A stretch of DNA of 64,000 bases, from assembly GCF_036669915.1 (NCBI RefSeq), contig NC_089320.1, positions 22,427,948-22,491,947 on the forward strand, written 5' to 3'. The translations under genes and the position numbers were made by a program. Origin of the DNA: Pocillopora verrucosa (lineage: Eukaryota; Cnidaria; Anthozoa; Scleractinia; Pocilloporidae). Below the pieces are notes generated by a model, which was not told the origin of the DNA, did not search any database, and worked only from the letters and a program-made list of their open reading frames with translations. This document shows positions 15,032 to 28,900 of this stretch, one piece after another; positions within the stretch are counted from its first letter, which is position 1, and each line of letters starts with the position of its first letter.

Positions 15032-15038
15032 TATAAAA
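15032..15038 (+). promoter_or_regulatory. Candidate TATA box of the first vWA gene
   Basis: TATAAAA lies 89 bases before the start codon at 15127. This predicts transcription start near 15060 and a 5' UTR of about 60 bases. A TATA promoter would suit a strongly or cell-type-specifically expressed secreted protein. Confidence 0.5.
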
Positions 15039-15126: not shown

Positions 15127-18100
15127 ATGGCGAGGAAAAGTAAGATGGTTTTATTTATCGCAGAATAACTTGGCTGGATTTATAAACAAGCTTCACATAT
15201 ACAAGGCGTAAAGTGCAGGTTTTTAAGGAATGATTTTAACGCCTTTCTGTGTTTTTTAACCTCTTAGTTGTTGGCGCTGCTCTGATCCTTGTGGTTTTGT
15301 GTGTTAGCGGAGAAGTAGGAGGTGAGTACATGCTTTTATAAAAGTTATAGTTTTATCCTATTTCTGAGTTCATTTAGTCTGTTAACTCACTCGCAAGTTT
15401 TTTGGTTTTGTATGATGCTGTCGTGTACCAGTTACCTGGAAATGGGCTTGGCGAAAAAGTTAAATTTCAAAGTCGTATCTATTCAAGGATATTACCTCCC
15501 TGAGAGTGAACTAAATATGCGGTGAGAATTTGGGTTTCTAAAGAGACTGTTTTGTAGCATCGGCGGGGCAATTAAAATAACAGATTTATCATTGACCTCT
15601 TAGATGAGTTAATTATAACTAGAAAAAAGTCTTTTTCAGCTTCAAGTGTCTTTGTAAAGGCGCAAATTGAAAACGCATACAGCAAATTCAGGACGAGATA
15701 TGATCATTGCACTCGTGACAAGAACTTTGTTCGCTCTTAAGTTATGTAAACGTTTTTTCTCCTGGAGCCATTAACCACCTTCAGGTGCCGATTTCTATCA
15801 TAGTTTTTAGGTTGTAGATAAAATTAGAACTAATAACGAATTGGTTCAGTTCCTGCAATAAGGCAAATATTTAATCCTAGAATGAAATCAGTCTTTTATT
15901 GATCAACTCATGAAGGTTATTATGATATCGTCATTTTTGTCCAATGGACTTCGATGGACTTTCGCGGCCCAGTTTGGGAAAGTGAATCTAGCAACTTAAA
16001 TTTGATGCCTCCCTCTTTGGTAAATACGACAAAAGCTTGGCAAACTTCTTTATCCCTTCTTTGAAAGATATGATAAACCCAAAAGTAACAACGAAATAAA
16101 CAGTCTTCTAGTATTTGTATTGTTCAGCCATGAAGGGTGCTAATATCAAGTGTCTTTCCAATGAAAATATATACCATAAATACTCTTTGAATAAGAAAAT
16201 GTCTGTGTGTTTCTGGTGTGTTTTTGAAGTTTTTAAATCGATTTATGATATTATGTTAGAGGGGTTTTTTTGCAACATTACCTCGATCAGGTTGAAAAGT
16301 TTAAAAAGTTGAAAGAGGATACAATTAGAAACTCATTGAGAGGTGAAATTAACTTTTCTTTTGTTAGTGGTTTTGGAAACTTCTGGGACGTCGCTTCCGT
16401 TAAACTCATATAGCTTCGTCTTATTGATTAAAAAAAACTACACGGGTGTTTCCTGTCAATATCTGAGAGTGGAAATCCCTTTGACTGTTGTAGCTCGATT
16501 TGGAACCACCGCCGGAAATAGAAGTTAAGCTTATTTTTAACAGAAGTGCCGCGGTAAACCACGATTATTACTCAGTCACTAGTCAGAAATGCTATCCTGA
16601 AGCCCAGTCAAAGCTTCACGTGACAAGGAAAAGTAATTAATGATGATGTACACTTTGGTATGCAACTAAATACTAGTAAGTTTAAAGATATGATGGAAAT
16701 TAAGTCTAACAGTGCATGGAATGACGTGCAATCACTGATAAAGGAAGTTGCTATTCATAGAAGGATAGGGGAACATAATCTGATGTTTTATCAGTGGAAA
16801 CTAAAATAATTTAGCTTACCCAAATTCCGCACAATATGACAACAAACAACAACTTGGAAGGCTAATAAGGTCATTCTGGGATCAAAATAATTTCCAAGTT
16901 GCATTAATAATTTTTTTAACTGCTAGATCGGTTCTGTCCTGGTGCAGTAAATCCTACAATTGTTTCAAAACAGTTTCCTTTTTTATCACCAGCGGATTGA
17001 CAGTATATATACTTGATGTATGTTCGATAAGTTCATGTTTCAATCCATTTTTAGTGTATGAAGACGAAATAACTCAGTCATGAAAAGTCATGCATTCTAT
17101 ACAATACAATATTTATTTGCCATATACGACATTTACACATGGAAAAAAAAATGAAGAAAATTGATGACAGAAAATAAATGGCGAGAAAACCTGAAAGAAA
17201 CCACGAGGCTTATAACAAGTCAGGCTTTCTCACTTAAAATAACTAATCTTATATTAGAATTACAATATGGACTTATGGTAATTAACTTTGACCGCGCACA
17301 CGTACACACACACACACACGCACACACATATTAAGTAAGTTAGTTAAGAATTACTGCCTTACAGAAGCTAATACTTAGAGAGAAGAAATTCCTTAAGCTT
17401 TCTTTTAAAAGAAGCGGAAGAGGGAGAACTAGTTATGTCAGAATTTAACGAATTATAAAAGTTTGGACCTTGAAAGTAAATTGAAAACTTCCTGGTGTTC
17501 GTTCTGCACAGTGGCAAACGGAAGGACTGAGCATTCCTAGTATTATAATTGTGGATTTGACTATTCAGTAAAAAAAAGTTATTGAATTTGGAAGGGAGTG
17601 TAGAGTTCTCGAATGAAAAAATTCTGTTTCGTTAGAGCTGTTGTGATGAGTGTCAAACTGCTAGATACTACGCATGCTCTGTTACTAGACTCCGAGACAT
17701 TGGTAAAACTACGTATTATTTTGAACACTACAGGTAATATGTTTCACCTTTAAAATCAATTTGAATGTTTTTCTTCACAAAAGTATTCTTTTGAAAAAGG
17801 CATCGTGAAGTCACCAGGTCAAGCGTGCTTTCTTTTCATAAAAGGTCTCATATTGTTGTAATTAATAATATTTGATTGTGAACGTGTCCTGGTTACGTGC
17901 AAAATTTATGAGCAGTGAAAATTTCTTCCTATGAGCGAAATATCGCTTGGAAACATTGAATCAGCGTCAATGGTTTTCGAAGTTTTCAAGGATGTGTCGC
18001 CTATCGCCATCTGAAAGTAGGTTGAACTTTGGAGAAAATTATAATGAAAAATATGCTACTCACTCTCCTTGGTGCTTGAACTGCCTTATATTGGCCAAGT

Positions 18101-20427
18101 TTCTCAAGCCTGGCACATTTTTGTGCCGTCTTTGATGTCATAACTCTTATTAAGATAAACATACCAGAGTTTAGTGCTAGCAACTCTTCCAAGACGTCAG
18201 TGAAACAGATATAGCTGGCGTTGTTATGGTAGAAGACAGCCAAGACTTGCTTCTTGTCACGAATACATGAACTCTGGTCCGTGTTCAATTTCAACCATTT
18301 CATTTTTTCATGAAATGAAAATAGCAAATTTAAAGGCTGAAGTGTCTCAATTTATGACAACAATTCCCTTGTCTTGCTTCAATCATAACATAACCCACTT
18401 ATGATTTTCAGTTCTGGGGCAAAACATTCCTTTTTCCCCGGGCCACCTACTAAAACCGGATTGAACTGAAAAGATAGATCAGCATTTTTCAATTGAGTAT
18501 CGAAAATGATCCTGCATTGCTTTGGTTTTGCTTTACTTTGATCTTGCACCACAATCTCAACCAATCAAACTGTAACCAAGGAAAGTATAGCCAATCCCGA
18601 CTTGGTCACTCCCGTTTTCTCGCGTCTCAACCAGGCTATCTGTTTTTACGTTAAGTTCTCACTGGTTTCATGATGACGGAAACCTTTGCTCTAAGTGGTA
18701 GTTGTGACTAATTTGGTCTTGGTTTTTTGAAACTTGATCAGTTGAAAACTGCTCTATATGCGGTGAACTCTTTAGAGTAAAGGTTACTGCATGTTGCTTC
18801 TTGGACCGGCAATGATTAACAACAAGAAAATAGTGACTCTTTTTAAACCCGCTAGTGCGTGGAGAGATATGGGTTTTGGCTGGGCTTACTTTATATGTTT
18901 TGAGCTCTGTTAACCATGCTCTATGACTGATTCATCCTTTCCTTTCCTTTCCCAGCAAATTTATGCAGTAAGAAGTTAGACATCATAATAGCAGCAGATG
19001 TGTCTGGCAGCATGGACGACAATCAATTCACACAACTACAGACATTTCTGTCGACGTTAGTGGATAACATCAAAATCTCCAAAACATCTGGTGCGCGGGT
19101 CATCGTCTTAGCCTTTGATGACCGGATTAACAGTCTGGCATCAAGCTTCAGTGATAAAGTAACAACATCTCGATCTGGGATTAAGACACAGATTAACGGC
19201 TTACAATTTACGGCTGGTTCTACAGTGATAGATACAGTAATAGAAGAAGCTAAGGATTTACTTAGCTCCGCAAACCGTGATACAGCACAAAAAGTAGTCG
19301 TTTTTGTAACTGATGGTGTTAATTTTAATGGAACTGATTCACTTGTTCTCCCCGCTCAAGAATTGAGAGATGTGAGTATAGTAGAGGAAATGATTAGTAA
19401 TGTTGTAGTGTTTACTAGCCCAGTTGTAACATTGCAAATCGTACTGAATTCCATATTCCACTTGTTCGGATTCCGGATTCCATTCCATTCCTTTCAATCT
19501 TTAAAATTCATTTGATTTCGTATCAATTCAGTTCCAATCTAAGTTCACATAAACTTTAAATTTCAATCTTTATTTATAACAAAAAACTCGTTCCTAATGG
19601 AGGAGATATGGAGAGAGAATAAGAGCAAGGATGACTATAAAAAAGGATCGCAGCTATGGATTCCGGATTCTAAGCGAAAAAAGTGTCTAGAATTGGACTC
19701 CTGATTGCCTTTCATGGCGTAATAGTGGCTGTCAGTCGTTAATCGCGAAGCTTTGACTGTTGCACGGCCGTTCAACACTGTTGAACGATAAATTAAAATC
19801 ATTACAAGTCTTTCAGTCAGTGTTTGCAATATCTCGATTTGCTCTTAATAATAAGGAGCAATTTTTAGCTGACTACCGAACTCGAGAATAATGCGTGATG
19901 ACATTGGTCTGGAAAAACCCGCACACCTCCTATCAAATGCAAAATCAAAACAATGAGAAAATTGAACGAACGCGTCTCCTAGTGCTTCAGGAAATTTGCA
20001 TACTACTCTCTCAATTGTTGGTGGTCCTAATGAGATTTCCGTTTTTGATTCACAAATACTAGATTAACAAATCTAACCTGTCTAAGTTCTAAAATGATAT
20101 CTGTTTAATTCCTCCCAGACTTTCAATGCAAGAGTTATCGGCCTAGGAATAGGCGAAGCTAACTCAATCAACATCCCTGGGCTTCGAATACTTGCCGGGC
20201 AAAATGACCGCGTTCTTATTCTGACGTTCGAGCCCAGTTCAGGAGGCAAGTGCTGTGACGACGATGAAGATGACGACGACGACGACCGCAAACGTCGTCG
20301 TCGTGATGAAGATGACGAATGTGATGACCGCCGTCGGCGTCGACGTCGCGATGAAGATGATGGCGGGTGTAGCAGTGGTGTTAGTAACGAGCTCAAAAAT
20401 GTTATAAAGCTAATTTGTTACGGCTGA
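15127..20427 (+). CDS. Secreted vWA-domain protein with alternating Asp/Glu and Arg tail blocks
   Basis: Exons: 15127-15139, 15268-15321, 18956-19371 and 20119-20427, all with GT-AG junctions in phase, giving 263 residues. Residues 1-22 form a signal peptide (MARK followed by a hydrophobic core). Residues 30-198 form a von Willebrand A domain with a full MIDAS metal site: D37-x-S39-x-S41, T112 and D142. The tail (206-245) is C-C, then ten acidic residues (208-217), RKRRRR (218-223), DEDDE (224-228), C, DD, seven Arg (232-238), DEDD (239-242), GGC. It ends with a short hydrophobic stretch and a final Cys. Four tail cysteines bracket the charged blocks. Role unknown: a secreted, metal-binding domain with an acidic tail is compatible with an extracellular-matrix or skeletal-matrix protein in a coral, but that is inference. 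It is unrelated in orientation to the second vWA gene at 25.9-30.0 kb. Confidence 0.88.
17090..17640 (-). mobile_element. Non-LTR retrotransposon (LINE) 3' end, decayed
   Basis: Read on the minus strand, 17631-17368 is open for 87 residues and ends in TAG. It contains NSQIHNYNTRNA, RTNTRKFSIYFQGPNFYNSL and SFKRKLKEFLL. These match the C-terminal end of the reverse-transcriptase ORF of CR1/L2-type LINEs as I know it (xYNTRxA, then F..xGPxxWNSL, then FKxxLKxxLL). An in-frame stop at 17632-17634 cuts it off upstream. The sequence after the stop contains a TG/CA microsatellite (17296-17330) and an AT-rich tail. The copy is 5'-truncated and inactive, as is usual for LINE insertions. The clade is uncertain. 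Confidence 0.75.
17296..17330. repeat. (CA)n microsatellite
   Basis: An imperfect CA repeat in the 3' tail of the LINE remnant. Confidence 0.85.
18488..18629 (-). repeat. Short interspersed repeat, copy 1 (diverged)
   Basis: In reverse complement relative to 28130-28280 it shares, in the same order, ATTGAGTrTCGAAA, TTGCTTTGGTTTTrCTT, CCAATCA and CGTTTTCTCGCG. Spacing is similar but the sequence between blocks has drifted. This indicates an old non-autonomous element family. No terminal repeats or target duplications were confirmed. Confidence 0.55.
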
Positions 20428-22256
20428 CCATGAAAAGAGATACAGAAGTAACTCAGCTTGGCTGATAATTCTACAGAACAACGCGAAACGACATAGAACA
20501 TATTTCATGATGTTTTTTTTGCTCCAAATGTCACAAGAGTGAGTTTATGGATGTTTTCATTCGAGACTGTTTCACTATCAACACCACTCACTCCTTCTAA
20601 TGGGCAAACTGTAGATAAATAACGTGAAAAAAAGTTGTCAAAAATTGCCAGAGCCTGCGGTTGTAATAACTCCTGACCTTAGCATTCAGTTGATTAATAT
20701 CATATGTTTAGCGGAGTAAATTGTTGAGATAAGTTTAGTATTTATTTATATAAAAAAAGGCCCAACACTGCATTAGATATGTAAGAATAACATTGCATTC
20801 ATTAGCTTTTAGCGCGTCTTTAGGAACATCGACCAGTTGGACCTGTTACTATCTGGAACGCTGGATATTGAATTATTTATCCTTATGATATTTGACAAAT
20901 CCAAGTTTAGCTTGGACGAAAAAAATCATGTATGATGCAGATTAACTCGACTGTTAAGATTAGTACTCTTTGAAAGGAAATGTTATGAAGTCGAATTGAG
21001 CGAGAGGTAAATTTGTCACGTTGAAGAGTCTTGATCATGCGTGAAGTCAGTGATAGCAGAGTGCTGTGATAGACTGCTACTTCAAATAAAACCGGTTCTC
21101 TCTTCAAAAGAATTAAATTTTCTTGTTTGCCATTCCTGTTCAGTGACCTGAGCTCTTTGATTCATTTCATTCTTTGTAAAGAGCACTCGTGCCTGAGAAC
21201 AAAAACAGTCTGAAACCACAACAACAATAAACACATTCGGAAAGACCGTTATGACGGCATAGCGGGATTCAAAATGATGGTTAAGCGAGATGTGAGGGCG
21301 CCTATCGTGTATTCTTTAAATGCAAGTTTCTTTATTTGGACTCTCTTCACTGTGCCCTGTTTGAACTCTCATGAAATTTTGTATTCAAAAGTATATTCTT
21401 GTAAGCGACCACGGACATAACTAGAGTCACGATTTAGGATGTTCTTTCATTTCTAAATTTCATCTCTATGCGGCTAGCTCAAGCTAATCAAACTTTTTCC
21501 GCGTCCCATGGTTGTCCACGGGAAATTACATGTCACGAGTTAAAATTTGTTCCAAGCAAACTGCCCCTCCTCTCTGAACCCAATCAACCTTCAGTATGGG
21601 TCTGTTTGCCTCATTGATATATACTGGCGTAATCTAGTCCTTGCAGACATATCAAAGATGCTCGATTGAAATGCAGGGCCGGATTAAAATTAGAATCTTT
21701 CTTTCACGTTTGAGTTATTAGAACTACTTCCGAAAAGAAGAAGACGTTTATAATACGTTTTCACAGTTTTTGAGAAGGCGGAATCCAATTTTTTTTCATT
21801 GCACTGAAAACGGCTAAATGTCAGAAGAGTTTTGACGCTAATGCGTGGAATCTCTGACCAGACTAACTTGAACTGGGAGTATATAATTTGGATTATGTAG
21901 TCCTGCCTCACCCAAAAATTAAATCCAAATAATCCACCAGCAAACTGACATGAATATATCCCGACGTGCTTTCTTGTAATAACCTAAGGCAGCAGAAAAC
22001 CATTGACTCTTACCTAATGACACCCTTTGAACGAAATTTTTATGACTGACTCTGTGTCTTCCTACGTAGCTTCAATAAGTCTGCAACACTAAAAACTTGA
22101 AAGGAGCTATTTACTTCGTGGAGTGCTTTAGCCGTAAGTAGCACTGGCTGTAGGCCGTAGGCTCCCTGACAACGAATGCTACGATACCCGCGAGGGCCTG
22201 AGCACAAAAATAACTCTTGTAACGCCTGGCAGTAAATCGTGTGAACAAATGTCAAC
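20428..22256. other. Intergenic region between first vWA gene and MFSD6-like gene
   Basis: Contains the vWA 3' UTR and the MFSD6 promoter and 5' UTR. A possible polyadenylation hexamer AATAAA lies near 21226. No gene or clear repeat was recognised. Confidence 0.45.
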
Positions 22257-23828
22257 ATGGCTACCGGTGGAGGGCAAATTATTAACGGTAAAATTCAAGC
22301 AGTAGAGGAGGAGACACAGTATGGAAATCGAGCGCGAATTTTCCGGATAAACAAAGATCTTTTGGTGCTAAAGCTTTACTACTTTTTCGCATTTAGTGCG
22401 AAAGCTTGTATCCAACCATTCTTTCCGGTGTTTTTACGCCACGTGGGATTATCAGCTGAACAGACCGGTTATGTGATCGGACTGCAACCACTGGCAAATT
22501 TCATTGGAGCACCCATCGCTGGCGCTTTAGCGGATAAATATCGAAAACATAGAGTTGCAATGTTAATTATGTGTATCGTTTCTTCTGCTCTTCGATTTTC
22601 TTTGGTGTTTCTTCGACCCAACGAGGAACTAAACGCGGCGAAGAACTTTTGTAATAATAGCTCATTTTCTAACATAACTGGAAAAGAAAGGACCGTACTT
22701 AAAAAAAATTATTCTATGATTCCAGAGAATTATTCATCACCTTTGGTGGATAAAAACTGCACAGATGATTTCGTTGGAAATACAACAGATATCGTCAAAA
22801 CTACAGCTAGTCGGGACAACTACAATATGTTTGTTCTTATATCTGTTCTTTCTTTTGTATGGTCGCTATTCGATGGCTCGAATTCCATGGCTGATGCAGC
22901 CACTGTTAAGTTCTTGACAGATATTGGCAGAGGCGGTGACTATGGCAAGCAAAGGCTGTGGGGTGCTGTAGGATGGGGTAGCATTGCAGTTTTGTCAGGG
23001 CTCACAATTGATCAATCCTCCCAGAATTCAAATCAGAGTCAGTTTTTCATAGCATTCTGTGGTTTCCTGTTGTTTAGCATTGCAGCTTTTGTAACAGTGT
23101 TTAAGTTGCCATTGGAATACTTAGGGGGTGAATCCAAGCCTAAGATTTTCCAGAATGTGTTCATTATTCTCTCTGACTGTCGCATTGTGACATTTTTGGT
23201 GGGGATTCTCATCATGGGAGCATGTTTTTCAACAATTGGTGCCTTTTTGTTCTGGTTTATTCAAGACATGAATGGCAGCCATTTGTTAATGGGACTAACT
23301 CTTTGCATGACATGTGTCTCAGAAGTTCCTGTTATGTTTTTTTCTGGGAAGTTAATTAAATGTATTGGCCATCATGGTGTCCTATACCTAACGTTTGTGT
23401 GTTATACAATTAGATACATGTTGTACTCATTCCTTCACAATGCCTGGTATGTATTGGCTGTGGAACCTTTACATGGTGTGACATTTGGAGCAATGTGGGC
23501 AGCTACAACTTCCTATGGGGGTCTTATTTCACCTGAAGGGATGCGTGCAACAGTGATGGGTTTGGTTATGGCAACGCATTTTGGTCTGGGAAAACTTATT
23601 GCAGGCTTTGGTGGAGGGGCCATGTACAGTAGTTATGGACCAAGAATTCTTTTTAGAAGTCTGGCTGTAACAAGTGCTATCACATGCTTGCTGTTTGCTC
23701 TTTCGCAGAGGTTGATTAAGAGGAAATCACAAGTGCATTATTCAAACTTTCACAATAATTCTCAAAATGACAGTACTTGGGATGCAGAGATGAAGGAGAT
23801 AAATTTAGATTCAGGCGATGAACTTTGA
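22257..23828 (+). CDS. MFSD6: MFSD6-like major facilitator transporter, single exon
   Basis: An intronless 523-residue reading frame starts with ATG in good context (aacATGG). Hydrophobic segments fit a 12-helix major facilitator of the MFS_1_like group. The N-terminus LVLKLYYFFAFSAKACIQPFFPVFLRHVGLSAEQTGYVIGLQPLANFIGAP is close to what I recall for MFSD6 and LacY-like MFS proteins, and GALADKYRKHR (88-98) is the conserved loop 2-3 motif. Residues 126-190 form a loop with seven N-glycosylation sequons (N133, N134, N139, N151, N158, N167, N175) and three Cys, so it is probably extracellular. Later SPEGMRATVMGL is also family-typical. Vertebrate MFSD6 is longer and spliced; MFSD6L is shorter. 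The substrate is unknown. Lack of introns suggests retroposition or ancestral intron loss. Confidence 0.92.
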   Translation: MATGGGQIINGKIQAVEEETQYGNRARIFRINKDLLVLKLYYFFAFSAKACIQPFFPVFLRHVGLSAEQTGYVIGLQPLANFIGAPIAGALADKYRKHRVAMLIMCIVSSALRFSLVFLRPNEELNAAKNFCNNSSFSNITGKERTVLKKNYSMIPENYSSPLVDKNCTDDFVGNTTDIVKTTASRDNYNMFVLISVLSFVWSLFDGSNSMADAATVKFLTDIGRGGDYGKQRLWGAVGWGSIAVLSGLTIDQSSQNSNQSQFFIAFCGFLLFSIAAFVTVFKLPLEYLGGESKPKIFQNVFIILSDCRIVTFLVGILIMGACFSTIGAFLFWFIQDMNGSHLLMGLTLCMTCVSEVPVMFFSGKLIKCIGHHGVLYLTFVCYTIRYMLYSFLHNAWYVLAVEPLHGVTFGAMWAATTSYGGLISPEGMRATVMGLVMATHFGLGKLIAGFGGGAMYSSYGPRILFRSLAVTSAITCLLFALSQRLIKRKSQVHYSNFHNNSQNDSTWDAEMKEINLDSGDEL

Positions 23829-25931: not shown

Positions 25932-28900
25932 CTAATCGCACACTTTGCCCAGCACTTCTCGAATATGGTCGGCGAGATTTTCAAATCTGTCCACAAATAC
26001 GTAATGGTCTTCCCCAGCCATAATTATAAGTTCTGCCAAATCCGCTACCCAACCAATACCGACTGCAACAATTTTTGCGTAGGATGATTTCTGGTAAAAA
26101 GCATTAAGGTTAACGTTAATAAGGCAGGAAAAAAAATCCATATTAACTACGCTACACTCCGTTACAAAGTGATTTCTTTCAAGGATACTTCTCGCAAAGA
26201 GTAGGGCGTGTAGCTCCTGGTGTTACGGTCTGGCCTTGTTATTTTTTATACAGGCCCCCTTTGAAGCTGATCTGGGCCAGGCTGTCTAAATATTTCAAAT
26301 AAAGTAATAAATAAACTGATCCTTTAGGTTGTTAGACCTTACCGGTAAATTCAGGGGGGGCTCACTTTAGCGTAAGGCTATAGAAGAGATTCTTCAACAA
26401 AATAAGGGGGGAGGAACAAACTTGGTCAATTGGAATTTCCGAGTTTACCTGGATGCTTTCCAATCTCATCGCTCTTCAAACCAGAGGTGAGGCCTTATGC
26501 ACCTACGGACAGCCCTCCCCCCTTCCTTCTAAAAATACCTTTAGAGCAGCAACAGGTGGCTTCAAGTAATCCATGCCGCCGAAAGTCTTGCCATCAGTCA
26601 GCACTAAAACACACCGAGGTATGTCGTGGTAGTCACGAGCACCATTATTTGGCCTGTATAACCAATAGGCACCCCATAAAGCTTGGTCAGAACGGGTGGC
26701 TCCTGAGGGGTACGGCATGCTGTCAAGTTTCATATCAAGGACAGATGAGTTGTGGTATATTGTGTCGTTAAAGGTGAAATCCATGTAAACATGATGATCG
26801 TAGTGGAGGCAAGCGAAATGAGTACCGTTCGTGGAAACGTTGAAATAGTGTGTGAATTCTCTCAAGAATGACTTAACGAGCTGAAAAGATTTGTTTCCGA
26901 TGCTCCCAGAAGCGTCGACAACAAAGGCAATGTCCAAGGGTTTTTTACAATCTGAAATATGGAGACAAAGTCATGTTAATATAGAGCACATGCCCTAAAG
27001 GGTTTGATTTCCTCATAGCTTTTACATATAAGGTGGACATTTGACCTATTCCTTGAGTCTGAATTCTTCCGAAATTCAGAACGTGACTAAATATGTTGTT
27101 TGGTATATTTGTATGAGGTAGATAATTTGGCTTCTTTGTCAAAGAGGATCTTATGGTGATTTTAATGTTACATTACCTAGAGGTATTTAAATTGACAGAA
27201 AATTCCATCTGAGATTGATTAGCAATGACAAGGGTATTTTCTAATTCGCTACTAACTTTTCCGTCGCGTATGCGTAAATTCCAGCATGGATTCATTCGTA
27301 TATAGCTGCATATGACTGGTATGGACGAAGTGAGTGTGCTCGTTGAAGAAAATGAAAATCGCTTTTCTGTGCATGGTGAAATAAATAATTCCTTACTTAT
27401 GGTTGTATTTGCTTTAGTTGGCTTAGCTGTTGATACAGCTGTTATTGGCTGAGTTGTAACTGGTTTGCTCGTGGTTGCCTCTGTTGTTGGTTTAGCTGTG
27501 ACTGCTTTAGTCGGAACTGGCTCTGCTGTGGTAGGCTTGGATGACATAGCCATGACAAAAAAATGAAGCAGCAAATACCAATATTGGTTAGAAGTCAATT
27601 AAAGGAGGGAGAAACTGAATAATAAAGCATAAACCAAAACAAGGACATCCCTGTTAATTAACAACTCCCCGTGATAAACATCCAACTCTTTAAATAATCA
27701 AACGGGGTAAGTTTCTTAAGAAACTGTGGTGCTTCGTCGTTGGGAGAGTACAACAGGTAATTTAGTGTTAACAACTGAGTTGAAAACGTAAATTGGCTAC
27801 CGTGAAGAGTTTAAAGGCTGACGTTTCGAGCGTTTACCCTTCGTCAGAGCGATTGACGAAGGGCTAACGCTCTTACGAAGGGCTAACGCTCGAAACGTCA
27901 GCCTTTCAACTCTTTACGGTGGCCAATTTACGTTTTCAACTCAGTTGTTAACACTAAATCATCTGTAAATAATTAGTTTGATAGTTTAATCACGTGTATA
28001 TCATAATTGAGCAGTTTTAAATTGAGCGTGGAAAAAAACCAAAACCAACATAATGCCAGTGACCTATCAGAATTAAGGTTTAGACTATCAGTAGCCAATA
28101 AGTACTCAAAGTAAGAGCAAGCAAACTATTTGAAGCGCGAGAAAACGCAAATAATCTTGTCGCGATTGTTTTTAGTTTTGAATCTGATTGGTAAAGAAGA
28201 TGGCGGTAGTCTTCTTGGCCAATCACAGAGCAAAGCTAAGTAAAACCAAAGCAAACCCGCGTTAGTTTCGACACTCAATAGCTACAACAGTGCTATCACT
28301 TGCTCTCGGGTGTCACCTTTTCTTCACAAGTGTGAATTCTGTACGTCTTATACTAAAAATAACAATCACACTGTTTATTAATCCATTTCCCACATTGAAA
28401 GTTCGTGGCTTCTCTTTCAGTCACACTTACTTCTTTTAATTCATAAATGAAGTTTGTCCAAGTCTTTCCACTGCATATCCTGTGAGGGCCCATCTTTTGA
28501 CACGTTCGGAATTTTAAGTCTATACAACTTCTTTTCTCTTTAAGCGGACTAGCAAAGTAGTCTCCTGCCCAACATTCTCCATAATATTGAATTCCAATGT
28601 ACTTGTAGCCCATCTCTTTGGCTTTTGTCGCACAACTACAAATTAAACTAATAACAAAAATAGAAAATAAAAACAACAGGTATAACCAAACAAAAAAAGA
28701 AAACGAACATACGAACGAGTATAAGAAACTAGGGTCCCAATCACTTAGCAAAATAAACAACAACTGTGCATTTAGAGACTAATGCTTTTTCGACTGGTCA
28801 CGAGAGTGGGACAAAGGAAGTCTTCATTAGGAATTGAGGCTTACTCACTCTCAAAGGGGAAAATACAAAACGAGATATGGTAACATTTGAGCTCTGTCAT

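Follow-up and report, generated by a model that had tools for sequence, protein, structure and literature searches.

The main finding of this analysis is a small gene of the stony coral Pocillopora verrucosa which encodes a vWA protein of secreted type, the last loop of whose domain appears to have been expanded into long alternating blocks of acidic and basic residues. The gene lies in a stretch of 64,000 nucleotides of contig NC_089320.1 (C9:22427948-22491947; hereafter the window), which was analysed together with the remaining genome (353 Mb in 52 contigs). The charged stretch is likely to be an insertion inside the vWA fold, and we favour, at roughly even chances, the explanation that this is a fast-evolving coral gene whose product acts outside the cell as a calcium-dependent linker of organic matrix, most likely that of the skeleton. 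That the product is a matrix protein of some kind is probable.

Four exons on the plus strand join in frame into 263 codons and a stop, all three introns being of the GT-AG type, and AATAAA signals are found at 21085 and 21226, the nearer one 0.66 kb past the stop. Judged by hydrophobicity alone, the core of the signal peptide spans residues 5-15 (IVGAALILVVL, mean Kyte-Doolittle value 3.29). It precedes a domain which matches Pfam VWA (PF00092) with an E value of 4.7e-18 and 66.4 bits, against a curated cut-off of 23.8, and in which sequence and alignment display all motifs of the metal ion-dependent adhesion site (MIDAS), namely D37/S39/S41, T112 and D142. A signal peptide and a vWA domain with complete MIDAS, as claimed in the original prediction for this DNA, were thus both recovered, and metal binding by this site is predicted from the motifs. 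A Pfam scan of the protein at E 0.001 returned three families, all of VWA type, and no CBM_14 chitin-binding, laminin G, TSP1 or F5/8C domain (a degraded partial laminin G domain could escape such a scan). Likewise, the PDB matches were all of vWA type, the best being proximal thread matrix protein 1 (E 2.5e-9). By its sequence, then, the product is a small and minimal protein of secreted type, composed of a signal peptide and one vWA domain with no further recognised domain, and contains six cysteines beyond the signal peptide (26, 206, 207, 229, 245 and 261). In the 3.6-kb intron no WSC- or TSP1-like open reading frame (ORF) was apparent by eye, and a Pfam scan of two ORFs, one of them antisense, gave no family. 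An annotation artefact, with exon 4 unused and the blocks untranslated, would be compatible with the fact that this exon is known here from the genome sequence alone. We give this explanation next to no weight, because exon 4 holds the last vWA strands, has a good acceptor and a phase-0 junction as in its relatives, and reaches an in-frame stop two residues past the closing cysteine. Skipping of this last exon in RNA is unlikely, as the vWA fold would then lose its end.

Along residues 208-242 the charges form runs of 10, 6, 7, 7 and 4 when neutral letters are skipped, and this block of 35 residues, with 21 acidic and 13 basic, displays five runs where about 17 would be expected (exact p = 4.4e-6); none of 200,000 shuffles of the same letters reached five charge runs. 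The predicted succession of acidic, basic, acidic, arginine and acidic blocks therefore stands. The accompanying claim that cysteines mark the block boundaries fails for the middle acidic block, in which Cys229 is internal (DEDDECDD), and the first basic block includes one lysine. Two codon patterns were searched genome-wide: CGNx4-GANx4, that is four Arg followed by four Asp or Glu, occurs at two places, both in this gene, against one for the reversed control, and GANx5-CGN-MRN-CGN-CGN at one place, again in this gene, against none for its control. By these two patterns the genome holds no second copy of the design, acid-base junctions written with AGR or AAR codons falling outside the genome-wide search, and the C-terminal 70 residues have no other genome match even at E 10, in a search whose first look passed one candidate only. 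In viral contigs 22 pattern matches were obtained, with no relative among them.

Similar blocks were also looked for in 53 vWA loci plus the window (301 kb; seven loci overlapping the window were left out). At a threshold of E 1e-5, all but one of these 54 sources gave matches to vWA exons, 111 altogether, although overlap between loci means that many were counted twice. The survey covers part of the vWA exons of the genome, which number at least 152 (150 of 614 candidates were scored). Acidic runs of eight or more residues are found at three places in the surveyed loci, corresponding to this gene and to two poly-Asp runs in stop-broken frames, and an acid-base junction elsewhere at one place, shared by the overlapping loci L042 and L053, where Asp5-Lys6 is met by a stop two residues on. 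The two poly-Asp triplet runs (L054:4481 and L055:2975) are situated near two vWA exons of contig C1; they are probably not coding, and a role as source of acidic inserts is possible.

In order to place the charged stretch relative to the fold, a vWA model was built from domains that this genome encodes in a single exon; we chose 29 of them at first and kept 24. Of the five dropped, L038 has no start motif, L032 and L035 were off motif, and L040 as well as a second exon of L006 were put aside without examination; among the 24, several are close duplicates (L030, L036, L042). When the full protein is added with MAFFT, the last strand (VLIL-TFEPS) precedes the charged stretch and the last helix follows it: VSNELKNVIKLIC (residues 249-261) aligns with alpha7 and the closing cysteine of the model, 22 of whose 24 domains end this helix in Cys. 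The limits of the insertion, residues 201-245, were set by our own choice. With the insert in place the match to the model ends at position 169 of 188, and with the insert removed it reaches 188, the scores being 82.0 bits with the insert, 85.7 without and 83.1 for the core alone; a second model, made for exon 4 from 27 domains, gives 13.7 bits, versus 11.6 without the C-terminus. The insertion reading is also helped by the neighbouring vWA gene of the window, whose protein likewise ends right after the closing cysteine, with the stop one residue past it (GKVCD), compared to two residues in the studied gene (ICYG). Three results weigh against this placement: in the 24-domain model 8 of 500 shuffled C-termini score as well as the real one (best 90.1 versus 85.7 bits), in the exon-4 model 12 of 1000 equal it, and a third model, built from five split domains, stops short of alpha7 (9.6 versus 11.1 bits, with 368 of 1000 shuffles as good). 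With two models for it and one not, an insertion inside the vWA fold, before alpha7, is likely and moderately supported. The original prediction had placed the blocks in a tail after a complete vWA domain, and such a separate module is no longer the likeliest arrangement, as the alignment shows no alpha7 ahead of the block.

The charge blocks amount to 2.3 copies of one 42-bp unit, and consequently their alternation does not represent five independent events. Based on this tandem duplication and on the GAC and CGT runs inverted relative to each other, we infer an origin in few steps, through a triplet tract, an inverted copy and a duplication. The RNA fold of the repeat is somewhat better than that of shuffled sequences (z -2.22, 2 of 200 as good). 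The same inverted repeat and tandem duplication would be found if the blocks were a mutational by-product, in which a GAC/GTC tract and its inverted copy happen to encode Asp and Arg, were duplicated, and are tolerated without function in a surface loop. This we regard as improbable, given the way in which the two full copies have diverged: of 10 base differences, 2, 2 and 6 fall on the first, second and third codon positions, the charge class is nevertheless the same in 13 of 14 codons, and all four CGN codons occur in one Arg run. When 10 changes were placed at random, a simulation which assumes independent changes and a simple duplication, such retention of charge class was equalled in 5 (copy 1) and 12 (copy 2) of 20,000 trials, and in 100 of 20,000 without the AAA/CGT codon; the identity of 11 of 14 residues was equalled in 63 and 78 of 20,000. 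These figures provide a one-genome hint, moderately supported, of selection for the charge pattern. On the opposite strand, a Ser/Arg-rich ORF of 111 residues (window 20082-20417, minus) overlaps the charge block and is probably a side effect of the GAC/CGT codons; an antisense gene across the block was set aside, the full exon set being on the plus strand.

Within the genome, the non-self matches of the protein do not exceed 34% identity. The junction of exons 3 and 4 is a phase-0 intron at a position common to five other examined split vWA domains, four of them at C8:22.57-22.59 Mb and the fifth in the neighbouring gene at 25.9-27 kb of the window, where the acceptor is in phase 0 in each case and the donor could be seen in four. 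Further vWA exons of the genome break off near profile position 101-125, and the shared intron need therefore not single out these five domains. In a tree of 30 domains, computed on the part encoded by the first domain exon, the studied gene pairs with its window neighbour (87/93 support) on a very long branch of 2.76 changes per site, the bootstrap not being settled. Unlike the tree, pairwise scores rank the C8 domains first, one C8-locus vWA domain being the best match outside the studied gene, and the neighbour well behind, which speaks against the pairing; kinship to the neighbouring gene is thus suggested only tentatively. The C8 locus contains TSP1, vWA, F5/8C, D8C and WSC-like exons, the last below the Pfam cut-off.

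This family background would also suit a protein that serves common adhesion or immune functions outside the cell and takes no part in the skeleton, a fast-evolving member of a huge vWA family whose loop binds glycans, mucus or charged surfaces. Such a reading accounts for the abundance of vWA exons, which include a large tandem array, for the very long branch of the gene, and for the adhesion-type exons (WSC-like, TSP1, F5/8C) that adjoin related vWA domains. Nevertheless, an Acropora protein combining TSP1, vWA and F5/8C is itself skeletal ('TSP-1 and VWA', PMC4890752; here and below, statements on published work refer to extracts of the papers cited), and a vWFA protein named 'VHS3-like' occurs in the skeleton of Stylophora, and we hold the absence of a skeletal role to be possible but doubtful. 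The array (G000, C10:16305021-16338245) consists of 25 vWA exons with identical scores, spaced by about 1.36 kb.

The features described are collected below. The neighbouring vWA gene as a whole spans window positions 25932-28778 on the minus strand, 5.5 kb away, if WSC-like and Thr-rich upstream exons are assumed to be part of it; its WSC-like match lies below the Pfam cut-off. Between both vWA genes, a single ORF of 527 residues (window 22245-23828, plus) has, by eye, the look of a major-facilitator-type transporter.

Features of the vWA gene and its surroundings, in window coordinates
Feature	Positions	Strand	Basis or remark
TATAAA box-like site	15032..15037	+	95 bp 5' of ATG; pattern in sequence, putative function
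Coding exon 1 (MARK..., start codon)	15127..15139	+	GT donor gtaaga, open joined frame
Coding exon 2, remainder of signal peptide	15268..15321	+	AG/GT sites, hydrophobic core
Coding exon 3, encoding Cys26 to residue 161 of the vWA domain	18956..19371	+	Pfam VWA; coral vWA HMM (hidden Markov model) 82 bits
MIDAS DxSxS (DVSGS, residues 37-41)	18997..19011	+	sequence, alignment
MIDAS Thr (GST, residues 110-112)	19216..19224	+	same place in other aligned vWA domains
MIDAS Asp (TDG, residues 141-143)	19309..19317	+	sequence, alignment
Coding exon 4: last vWA strands, charged insertion, alpha7-like helix, stop	20119..20427	+	AG acceptor, open to TGA
Likely 45-residue insertion (residues 201-245) with CC...C...C and charge blocks	20236..20370	+	MAFFT addition to 24 vWA domains
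Acidic block 1, DDDEDDDDDD (208-217)	20257..20286	+	
Tandem 42-bp unit, two copies, 76% identical; partial third to 20360	20263..20346	+	repeat search, TRF (Tandem Repeats Finder)
Inverted repeat, GAC run complementary to CGT run	20270..20307	.	15-nt arms 93%; 11-nt inner arms 100%
Basic block 1, RKRRRR (218-223)	20287..20304	+	
Acidic block 2, DEDDECDD (224-231), internal Cys229	20305..20328	+	
Basic block 2, RRRRRRR (232-238), four different Arg codons	20329..20349	+	
Acidic block 3, DEDD (239-242)	20350..20361	+	
Alpha7-like helix and domain-closing Cys261 (249-261)	20380..20418	+	alignment, moderate support
Neighbouring vWA gene, last two exons, protein end ...GKVCD and stop	25932..26952	-	tree 87/93, exon coordinates

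In the vWA fold, the loop preceding alpha7 is situated at the same end as the MIDAS. In the mechanism that we propose, this loop would have been expanded by a triplet tract and the 42-bp duplication into a cysteine-bracketed insert of 45 residues, which two disulphides may staple. The acidic blocks would bind calcium or mineral and the arginine blocks acidic matrix proteins or carbonate, while the MIDAS metal would bind carboxylates of partners; by presenting both kinds of block beside the metal site, the insert could link calcium, mineral and acidic partners. MIDAS metals are known to bind their ligands through an Asp or Glu residue, and in integrin I-domains the position of alpha7 is coupled to MIDAS affinity (PMC9287160, PMC5811549). 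We see a slim chance that the protein would ligate itself, with its acidic blocks supplying carboxylate ligands to the MIDAS metal of their own or an adjacent molecule. Calcium and pH would then decide, at the mineral front, whether it exists as a monomer or as a polymer or coacervate, and the arginine blocks would tune this behavior. The idea of coacervation, already raised in the original prediction, has a precedent, because calcium-Pif80 coacervates are reported in a review (PMC8854647). If the placement of the insert is true, a metal-dependent adhesion domain would have had its regulatory last loop turned into an alternating-charge polymer.

Proteins with vWA or vWF-type domains recur in coral skeletal proteomes (PMC4890752 among them), and through these published proteins the skeletal-matrix role put forward in the original prediction becomes more plausible. 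The best lead is SpiUSOMP12 (XP_022783323.1), a vWFA protein of the Stylophora pistillata skeleton, identified by cross-linking along with coral acid-rich proteins (CARPs) and carbonic anhydrase (PMC8086859), of which the studied gene is probably the counterpart. Its automatic database name is 'phosphopantothenoylcysteine decarboxylase subunit VHS3-like' (PMC7115838), and in the extract of that paper the accession occurs once, in a protein list. Since yeast Vhs3 has an acidic C-terminal tail (PMC9604783), the name may have come from an acidic stretch in SpiUSOMP12. Compared by description only, the two coral proteins are alike in the vWFA domain, the coral origin and, through this name, the link to an acidic-tailed yeast protein. 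Extracts of PMC9532382, PMC8382919, PMC8162421 and PMC12419799 name neither the studied protein nor USOMP12. A calicoblast marker of Stylophora, XP_022783415_1 (PMC8162421), has an accession number 92 away from that of USOMP12 (XP_022783323).

Several points must be set against the linker explanation. The studied gene is known here from the genome sequence alone. Its mature product is only mildly acidic (net charge -10, pI 4.7), the classical acid-rich coral proteins being more acidic, and where vWA exons are as numerous as in this genome (at least 152), a vWA domain does not by itself point to the skeleton. The putative USOMP12 link consists of a database name and a shared domain, and the similarity given for SpiUSOMP12 in the Stylophora skeletal-protein paper is to an Acropora collagen-XIV-like protein, at 28%.

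The basic blocks suggest a further explanation, in which the protein is a proprotein and furin-type cuts at RKRRRR and RRRRRRR release or loosen the acidic pieces; alpha7 would thereby be freed and the vWA domain switched. Both blocks fit the furin-type rule R-X-K/R-R; however, seven arginines exceed the needs of a cleavage site, the acidic and basic blocks are equally kept between the repeat copies, and the flanking cysteines could keep cut pieces joined. Cleavage of this kind, which we consider unlikely, does find a parallel in Pif of the pearl oyster Pinctada fucata, in which a cut at RMKR separates the vWA part from the charged one (PMC11291548).

Returning to the linker explanation, what is already known is that vWA proteins are present in coral skeleton and that molluscs join vWA to mixed-charge sequence. 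A recombinant coral vWA domain altered crystal shape and inhibited or slowed CaCO3 precipitation in vitro (PMC12662967), which suggests control rather than promotion of mineral. Among coral proteins, the 'TSP-1 and VWA' skeletal protein resembles the studied gene in that vWA domains of the C8 locus, whose TSP1, vWA and F5/8C exons call that protein to mind, share its intron position and phase, and differs from it in that the studied gene has a single vWA domain with a charged insert and neither TSP1 nor F5/8C. The neighbouring vWA gene has the same split vWA domain, pairs with it in the tree and ends right after the closing cysteine, but lacks the charged insert and has probable extra upstream exons.

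The best-understood comparison is Pif (Pif97/Pif80), of the calcium carbonate matrix family Pif/BMSP, in which vWA is joined to an aragonite-binding sequence rich in Asp, Lys and Arg, with DDRK repeats (PMC11291548). The earlier statement that no family has this design was therefore too strong. Alike in both are a secreted vWA domain after a signal peptide, an Asp/Lys/Arg-rich stretch and a cleavable basic site; unlike the coral protein with its long blocks, Pif carries short DDRK motifs scattered over a charged part of 460 residues, and it also includes chitin-binding and laminin-G parts. Membership in the Pif family was rejected, as the coral protein contains no chitin-binding or laminin G domain. 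In the extracts of the literature searched, no mention was found of a long block alternation or of its place inside a vWA fold. The vWA part of Pif pulls down Pif80, nacrein and protease inhibitors (PMC11291548). The present sequence lets one ask whether SpiUSOMP12, misleadingly named after an enzyme, is a conserved vWA-polyampholyte protein. If our explanation is true, recognition and binding of mineral or calcium would be joined in one small coral domain, in parallel to mollusc Pif and by a different route.

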